Shown piece after piece: positions 45,409-47,282 of a stretch of DNA of 54,455 nt (positions within the stretch are counted from its first letter, which is position 1; every line of letters begins with the position of its first letter). The notes beneath the pieces were generated by a model that did not search any database, was not told the origin of the DNA, and saw only the letters and a list, made by a program, of their open reading frames with translations. Origin of the DNA: Vulcanimicrobiota bacterium (GTDB taxonomy: Bacteria > Vulcanimicrobiota > Vulcanimicrobiia > Vulcanimicrobiales > Vulcanimicrobiaceae); NCBI GenBank assembly GCA_027315245.1, contig DAHUYK010000056.1, positions 1 to 54,455 of the forward strand, in the 5' to 3' direction. A program made the position numbers and the translations under genes.

Positions 45409-45804
45409 ATGAGCACCAAGCTCGACATTGGCCTTTCGCATAGTCTGCAGAGCCGCGTCGAGGAGTGGATGACGGCGCAGCACGCCGGCAACAAGGGCGT
45501 CGACGTTCTCTCGACGTCGGTCCTCGTTCAACTCATCGAGCAGGCGGCTGCCGATTGCATAGCACCCCACTTAGAAGAAGGCCGCGTCAGCCTGGGCACG
45601 CACATCGAGCTCGAACACCGCGAGCCGGTCCCCGTCGGGTTCATCGTGCGGGTCGAGGTCGAGATCGTCAGCACCGACGGGCCCCGCGTGACCTTCGCCG
45701 TCAGGGTATTTGACGAGCAGGAAGCCGTGGCGGAGGGGAGCCACGAGCGCTACCTCATCGAGCGCTCTAAGTTCGTGGCCAAAATACAAGAGAAGCTCTC
45801 CTAA
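45409..45804 (+). CDS. Thioesterase family protein (FlK-like hotdog)
   Basis: VDVLSTSVLVQLIEQAAADCIAPHLEEGRVSLGTHIELEHREPVPVGFIVRVEVEI. Confidence 0.85.
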   Translation: MSTKLDIGLSHSLQSRVEEWMTAQHAGNKGVDVLSTSVLVQLIEQAAADCIAPHLEEGRVSLGTHIELEHREPVPVGFIVRVEVEIVSTDGPRVTFAVRVFDEQEAVAEGSHERYLIERSKFVAKIQEKLS

Positions 45805-45883
45805 AGGCCCAACCTCTTCTGAAGCTCCCCCAGCAGGGGGGCTAATCAGCCTCCCGAAGTCATGCCGCAAGGATTGCCCGCGG

Positions 45884-45995
45884 GGAGACTTTAGTGGCCG
45901 GCGCAGCCGAGGACCGGCGCGGCGGCGTGAGTCTCCACTTCACATTGAAGAACCGGGGCAAGCCGAGGTCCTCATCTTCTACCTAGGAGGAAGCT
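45884..45995 (+). ncRNA. Candidate structured 5' leader / cis-regulatory RNA
   Basis: Outer stem GGAGACT (45884-45890)/AGTCTCC (45930-45936), inner stem GCCGG (45897-45901)/CCGGC (45914-45918) with loop GAGGA (45909-45913); TCCTC (45969-45973) complementary both to that loop and to the SD GAGGA (45987-45991). Confidence 0.4.
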
Positions 45996-47282
45996 TTGAA
46001 GCGACTGAGCATCGGGGTCCTGACCGCTCTGCTAGCAGCAGGTTTTGGACTCAACGCGGTCGCCGCTCCGGCCTCTGCAACGCATGGAAACATTGGAACC
46101 AATGCGCTCGCGCAGGCATCGGACCAGGCACCGCCGCCCGACTTCGGCTCTCCGCCGTCGGGGCAAATACCGATCCTCTATAACGATCATCACGTCTACG
46201 CGAAGCCCGACGTTCTGAAGCAGGATCGGGTGCTCGCGGCGCTCGTGCGCCACGGGACGATTCTGATTCCACTGCGTTCGATGTTCGAGCAGATGGGCGC
46301 AACCGTCAGCTACGATCCGGCCACGAGAACGGTCGACGTAAGCAAGGCGGGAGCCGACGTCAAAGTAACCGTCGGAAAGCCCGAAGTGGTGATCAACGGC
46401 GAGACTCGTCCACTGGACGTTCCGCCCATCCTCTATCACGGGATCGTTCTCGTTCCCGTGCGCGTCATCTCCGAGGGCATGGGAGCCTACGTCCTGTGGG
46501 TTCCGGATCGCCACATCGTGGTCGTCCGGTACATTCCGCCGACACCGCCCCCGCCGCCCCCGCCGCCGGCAACGGTACAACCGTCAGCACCGCCGCCGCC
46601 CCCCCCGCCACCCCCGGCGCCATACCACGACGTGTACGTGGCTGGTGACTACATCATCTCACCGAAGGTGTACAACCAGTTCAGCCCCGGGAACACGGCA
46701 AACGACAACAATGGCGGATTCTCGTATCGCCTTCACGGCGCAGCCGAGTTCGATCTTTTGGGCATCCCGTGGATGCTCCAGGGTGACTACCGGCAGATCA
46801 ACTACCCGCACAACTGCGCGGGCATCGCCGATCCCGGATGCTACGTGACGAACATCGGTAGCACCGGCTCGTCGTTCGTTCCGGCGTTCACCGTGCGTGA
46901 CTACGATTTCGATGCGCGGCTCGGCATTCGCGTGCTGACCCCTCGCATCTACATCGGCGTCGGGTACATGTGGCGCTCGAACAACTACGGCTACCCGCGG
47001 GTGAACAACTGGGGCTTCGGCCTATCGAAGCTGCCGGATCTCGATCATCCGTGGAGCTGGTACGGCAGCGCGTGGTACTACCCGAATGTCAAGGGCACGA
47101 CCGGCGCGTACACCCTTGCGTACAACATCCTGAAGTACGACCTCGGTGTATCCTACTCGATTGTCAACACCCCGATCATGATCGAGGCTGGATGGCAAGG
47201 CGAGAGAGGCTATCAGCTCGATGACGCACCCATCGGCACGGTCCAGAACGGTCCGTACTTCGGTGTCGGCATCAAGTTCTAA
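45996..47282 (+). CDS. Copper-amine-oxidase-N1-like domain, poly-Pro linker, C-terminal outer-membrane-type beta-barrel
   Basis: Signal peptide; ALVRHGTILIPLRSMFEQMGATVSYDPATRTVDVSKAG; two Pro tracts; C-terminus ...NGPYFGVGIKF. TTG start with AGGAGGA SD. Confidence 0.8.
   Translation: MKRLSIGVLTALLAAGFGLNAVAAPASATHGNIGTNALAQASDQAPPPDFGSPPSGQIPILYNDHHVYAKPDVLKQDRVLAALVRHGTILIPLRSMFEQMGATVSYDPATRTVDVSKAGADVKVTVGKPEVVINGETRPLDVPPILYHGIVLVPVRVISEGMGAYVLWVPDRHIVVVRYIPPTPPPPPPPPATVQPSAPPPPPPPPPAPYHDVYVAGDYIISPKVYNQFSPGNTANDNNGGFSYRLHGAAEFDLLGIPWMLQGDYRQINYPHNCAGIADPGCYVTNIGSTGSSFVPAFTVRDYDFDARLGIRVLTPRIYIGVGYMWRSNNYGYPRVNNWGFGLSKLPDLDHPWSWYGSAWYYPNVKGTTGAYTLAYNILKYDLGVSYSIVNTPIMIEAGWQGERGYQLDDAPIGTVQNGPYFGVGIKF

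Follow-up and report, generated by a model that had tools for sequence, protein, structure and literature searches.

The 163-nt stretch at 45833-45995, running from a G-rich hairpin to the start codon of a gene for an outer-membrane barrel protein, is very probably a genuine cis-acting leader. It lies in a window (the whole stretch of DNA analysed) of 54,455 nucleotides, taken from a genome of 2.1 Mb. The best explanation of the stretch would be that its folded RNA, as part of the mRNA, controls in cis how strongly the barrel gene is expressed; translation initiation is the most likely point of action, with a possible further effect on mRNA stability. In the proposed layout, a hairpin with a G-run (H1) comes first and a long interrupted stem (P1-P2-P3) second, and the stem bears a freely varying arm (P4). 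In the genus of the window, the last strand of that stem may have two uses, since it could pair either within P1 or in a hairpin that masks the Shine-Dalgarno (SD) sequence. This explanation as a whole, leader and dual-use strand together, is preferred tentatively and is given a little under an even chance.

Gene context and distribution of the leader

All features described here are on the plus strand. Upstream of the leader is a gene for an FlK-type hotdog thioesterase (45409..45804; Pfam FlK, E 5e-30), which is separated by a spacer of 191 nt (45805-45995) from a TTG-started gene (45996..47282) recognised by a PF07833 match (E 1e-24) and an AlphaFold barrel. The sequence AGGAGG at 45985..45990 serves as the SD, 5 nt 5' of the TTG at 45996. 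The extent of the leader was set from orthologous leaders and from matches to R1, a 60-nt model of its 5' core built from 18 sequences, including that of the window. R1 matches the window at 45833-45892 with an E of 1.7e-12, and the next best place in the same genome reaches only 1.1. At E<=0.05, R1 matches 47 of the 99 genomes of one family of Candidatus Eremiobacterota, and each of them at exactly one place; these genomes represent 19 of the 38 genera of the family, a lower bound because R1 missed diverged versions at three loci (L005, L020, L040). Outside that family, no R1 match was found in a class sample of 117 genomes or a phylum sample of 149.

The gene context is conserved as well. 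A member of the same TTG-started gene family follows 86-169 nt downstream in 47/47 R1-matching loci, including L057, whose gene was missed in the protein search window and identified solely by its conserved start motif. The orthologous leaders in these 47 genomes are 86-169 nt long. A thioesterase homologue lies 2-101 nt 5' of the leader in 46 of the 47 loci, the contig of the remaining one being too short to show it. Within the leader, a conserved 5' block (GCAGGGGGGgCAATCg..CCCGAAg....AAGGATTG..TTGGGTA) precedes the variable arm and a conserved 3' block (GGCAA..GAGGTCTCATT..TAGGAGG) follows it. TAGGAGG is invariant in an alignment of 23 leaders; L020, which is outside that alignment, reads ATGGAGG. 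In several genera the core of the leader is replaced or shortened. In one congener (L072; G007:C112:4697-4782) the leader is 86 nt long: H1 remains, whereas P4 and the greater part of P1-P3 are gone, and this natural deletion is useful as a test.

Folding of the spacer compared with dinucleotide shuffles gave z-scores of -2.6 (whole spacer) and -2.2 (45884-45998, the range of the initial annotation), which alone are weak for a GC-rich spacer, and the element is rated above chance because it is conserved in relatives. The initial annotation, which described a riboswitch-like leader in that range, was correct in its observation and partly correct in its interpretation: the conserved leader is real and is larger than first described. 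The part then recognised is only the 3' portion of an element that begins 51 nt further upstream, and the most conserved part (45833-45883) is outside the range given.

Pairing within the leader

The long stem is formed by the segment that follows H1 and the segment that precedes the SD, which energy-based duplexes computed for each leader separately place opposite each other in most genera; P1-P3 was not energetically favoured in three (g7, g30 and g53). The 5' strand of P1 (45856..45866, GAAG....GCC) pairs in the window as 45856-45859 with 45976-45979 and 45864-45866 with 45967-45969. The 3' strand of P1 (GGTCCTCATCTTCT, 45967..45980), which is also the anti-SD stretch, is conserved across genera with the family consensus GGTCTCATT and stops six nt 5' of the SD. 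The P2/P3 5' strand (45871..45883, GG.TTGCCC.CGG) lies opposite 45953..45964 (CCG GGGCAA.CC), with P2 formed by 45871-45872 and 45963-45964 together with 45874-45879 and 45956-45961, and P3 by 45881-45883 and 45953-45955.

MAFFT aligns the strands of P1-P3 poorly, so that column pair counts were uninformative and RNAalifold on these alignments recovered H1 and no other helix. An alignment-free strand-swap test was therefore used, in which the pairing of own strands was compared with that of swapped strands across 19 genera, averaged within genus. For the whole of P1-P3, own strands gave -21.0 kcal/mol against -17.7 (sd 0.7) for swapped strands, and 0 of 20,000 permutations were as good, in what is a permutation test rather than R-scape and with segment boundaries picked after the sequences had been viewed. 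P2/P3 alone gave the same count (0/20,000), whereas P1 on its own is suggestive and not significant (P=0.066). A composition-preserving control, in which the 3' strand was reversed, gave much weaker P values of 0.04 and 0.011, so composition accounts for a small part of the swap effect and not for most of it. Compensating changes are visible: two genera have CUG/CAG in place of UUG/CAA, and P3 takes the forms UUGGG/CCCAA, CUCGG/CCGAG and CCUGGG/CCCAGG. The earlier view that the leader is structured is supported, and P2/P3 shows partner-specific pairing across genera. The GGAGACT/AGTCTCC stem that had been proposed belongs to the variable arm.

H1 (45836..45855; GGGGGGCT/AGCCTCCC, loop AATC, then a conserved GAA) pairs in the window as 45836-45843 with 45848-45855. 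It is present in nearly all leaders and is the most conserved part of them, with a strand-swap P of 0.03, an almost invariant G-run and little covariation. A pseudoknot between its loop (AAUC) and GGAUUG, or AGUC/GACU in L055, was considered and rejected by inspection, as the two pieces are not complementary in a number of genera and P2 makes better use of GGAUUG.

The E. coli ompA 5' UTR carries a 5' stem-loop that stabilises its mRNA. Both are long, structured leaders of genes for outer-membrane barrels and have a stable hairpin close to their 5' ends; in the present leader, however, the P1-P3 stem reaches the SD, no sequence relation between the two is shown, and in the genus of the window the hairpin is probably intercistronic. 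An equivalent function here, with H1 blocking 5'-end-dependent decay and the rest protecting the ribosome-binding region without any switching, is unlikely overall, but it is the alternative that survives best. The conservation of H1 and the nature of the gene product agree with it, and it is established, according to titles cited in PMC3997798, that the ompA 5' UTR and stem-loops at the 5' terminus have a stabilising effect. In addition, TATACT or a variant, resembling a -10 box, directly precedes the G-run in many genera (L061-L064, L068, L069, L074 and L088); no obvious -35 element lies before it. This suggests that in genera with the box a transcript can start at H1, at the base of the hairpin. 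Nevertheless, the box has been lost in the genus of the window and the thioesterase stop codon of one congener is only 2 nt upstream, so the leader may be intercistronic in this genus, where H1 is kept though perhaps not 5'-terminal. Moreover, a pure stabiliser would need neither the conserved GGTCTCATT nor P2/P3.

Somewhat less probable still is autogenous control or control in trans, whereby the barrel protein itself, another RNA-binding protein or an sRNA would bind conserved single-stranded pieces of the leader. Candidate binding pieces are the AAUC loop, GAA, AAGGAUUG and GGUCUCAUU, and several conserved stretches are indeed predicted to be unpaired or weakly paired. Leaders under autoregulation typically occur once in a genome and serve a single gene, as this one does. 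However, an exported barrel protein would presumably be an awkward direct binder of RNA, and any partner, RNA or protein, is still only a candidate.

Predicted masking of the Shine-Dalgarno sequence

The preferred explanation, a cis-acting leader that most probably affects translation initiation, includes for this genus a predicted competition of P1 with a hairpin that masks the SD. When 40 nt of coding sequence were included, the unconstrained minimum-energy fold of the window sequence (-92.3 kcal/mol) pairs 45975-45980 with the SD at 45986-45991. Enforcing P1 costs 2.7 kcal/mol relative to this fold and enforcing the TCCTC:GAGGA anti-SD pairing of the initial annotation costs 0.3, so that in the window the mutually exclusive P1 and anti-SD folds are within 3 kcal/mol of each other. 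While its 3' strand is held in P1, the anti-SD hairpin could not form; once released, that strand would mask the SD, through either 45975-45980 with 45986-45991 or TCCTC with GAGGA. The SD would not be free in the P1-enforced fold, where GGAGG (45986-45990) pairs with CCTCC (45850-45854) of the H1 3' strand, and P1 alone is consequently no guarantee of an accessible SD. Pairing of the SD with this CCTCC is predicted in some g46 leaders too.

Masking is clearly predicted only in this genus and in g25, with SD pairing in the 3' fragment of 0.5-0.9 and 0.5-0.75, respectively. For g2, g3 and most g46 leaders, almost no anti-SD pairing is predicted, and masking is therefore not family-wide. The earlier proposal that TCCTC masks the SD thus holds in so far as an upstream pyrimidine stretch can do so in this genus, and does not extend to several others. 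Competition between P1 and the anti-SD hairpin is, on the predicted folds, a reasonable model for this genus rather than for the whole family. That the leader works as an SD-masking switch is accordingly possible and somewhat doubtful; we infer that there is a switch, in which direction it works and what sets it off. Its trigger could be temperature, an ion, an sRNA, the barrel protein or some other protein that binds RNA, and the data choose none of these. A TTG start is present in 47/47 leader-bearing orthologues, and GTG and TTG are about equally frequent in leader-less homologues; the invariant weak start could be part of the control.

The arrangement resembles translational riboswitches with SD-masking platforms, in that the last strand of a structured domain can alternatively mask the SD. 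It differs from them in having one target gene in one bacterial family, masking in some genera, and a ligand that is only hypothetical. The leader matches no catalogued RNA family, and membership of a riboswitch class cannot be claimed. None of the 4227 models of Rfam 15 reached its gathering threshold in the window, and permissive thresholds gave nothing relevant in 45600-46200 or at the loci of seven relatives, in agreement with the initial annotation, which had matched it to none of seven named riboswitch classes. The weak permissive matches in L014 miss the leader, falling within the coding sequence or past it. An attenuator based on an intrinsic terminator was also discarded, as no terminator-like site (hairpin plus T-run) occurs in 45700-46100. 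In the open-access papers searched, neither riboswitches nor leader RNAs were reported for Candidatus Eremiobacterota, and there was no mention of Eremiobacterota together with riboswitches.

It is improbable, although conceivable, that the leader represents signal-sensing RNA of a new class. P1-P3 would then read a signal related to the envelope, such as an ion, a metabolite or a protein, and would toggle between P1 and the anti-SD pairing, thereby setting synthesis of the barrel. A riboswitch of a new class that binds a metabolite or ion is slightly more improbable again. The order of a structured domain followed by a platform that overlaps the SD would suit it, as would the lack of an Rfam match, but the element serves a single gene in a single family, its core is not strongly invariant across genera, and no metabolic theme is apparent beyond the neighbouring thioesterase.

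The remaining proposal concerns P4 (45884..45936; GGAGACTT/GAGTCTCC, inner stems and the loop AGGAC), which folds as first described, from GGAGACT (45884-45890) and AGTCTCC (45930-45936). It is adjoined by a small hairpin, CTTCA/TGAAG (45938..45950), that is seen in the minimum-energy fold and is not conserved outside the genus; P4 itself is completely different or missing in other genera. The initial annotation also placed correctly the loop GAGGA (45909-45913), TCCTC (45969-45973), the SD as GAGGA (45987-45991), the TTG, the 191-nt spacer and the imperfect repeat AGCCGAGG(A/T)CC at 45905 and 45961. On these elements it built a decoy, in which the loop GAGGA captures TCCTC and frees the SD. 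The loop match is in fact 7 nt long, GAGGACC (45909-45915) being the exact complement of GGTCCTC (45967-45973), and both are kept in six of the seven R1-matching congeners, the exception being L072, which has lost P4. The decoy is nevertheless very unlikely, being absent as a conserved pair from the other 18 genera with the leader and, when enforced, folding at -79.4 rather than -92.3 kcal/mol (a cost of 12.9) with the SD still paired, now with ATCTTC, in a nested fold that cannot score the pseudoknotted version. The competition between P1 and the anti-SD hairpin is better supported than the decoy, which is a genus-level elaboration of a conserved leader. What is conserved about the TCCTC region is its place within the 3' strand of P1, whose partner is outside the range first annotated.

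The downstream protein and the possible significance of its leader

The protein encoded downstream has a signal peptide, a stalk-like Cu_amine_oxidN1 domain (PF07833), a Pro-rich linker and a C-terminal outer-membrane beta-barrel, which AlphaFold predicts confidently. The matches of the barrel in the PDB are outer-membrane porins and adhesins, the best with an E of ~1e-5 and all with low TM-scores. Among deep-branching diderms, proteins like SlpA are both widespread and abundant (PMC9388160). The regulated protein, as distinct from its RNA, resembles the SlpA/OmpM connectors in combining an N-terminal periplasmic domain with a C-terminal outer-membrane barrel. It differs from them in that PF07833 replaces the SLH domain and the linker is Pro-rich instead of a coiled coil, and binding to the cell wall is hypothetical.

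Barrel genes of this kind form a multi-copy family, most relatives having between 2 and 13 homologues per genome, yet the leader is found on only one copy in each genome. Across these homologues the leaders are of different types, and the one described here is the type with the conserved block that begins 5' of the range first annotated. R1 finds no match in one congener (G002); a gene there with a near-identical N-terminus (G002:C151; L035, L184) has a different leader and an unrelated gene upstream, and this leader-less copy is probably a paralogue.

The leader probably tunes the amount of barrel protein that is made. With natural variants in 19 genera, one of them with most of the element lost, it is a sharp test case. 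If it works as proposed, it would provide a first handle on the post-transcriptional control of a major outer-membrane protein in uncultured diderms.
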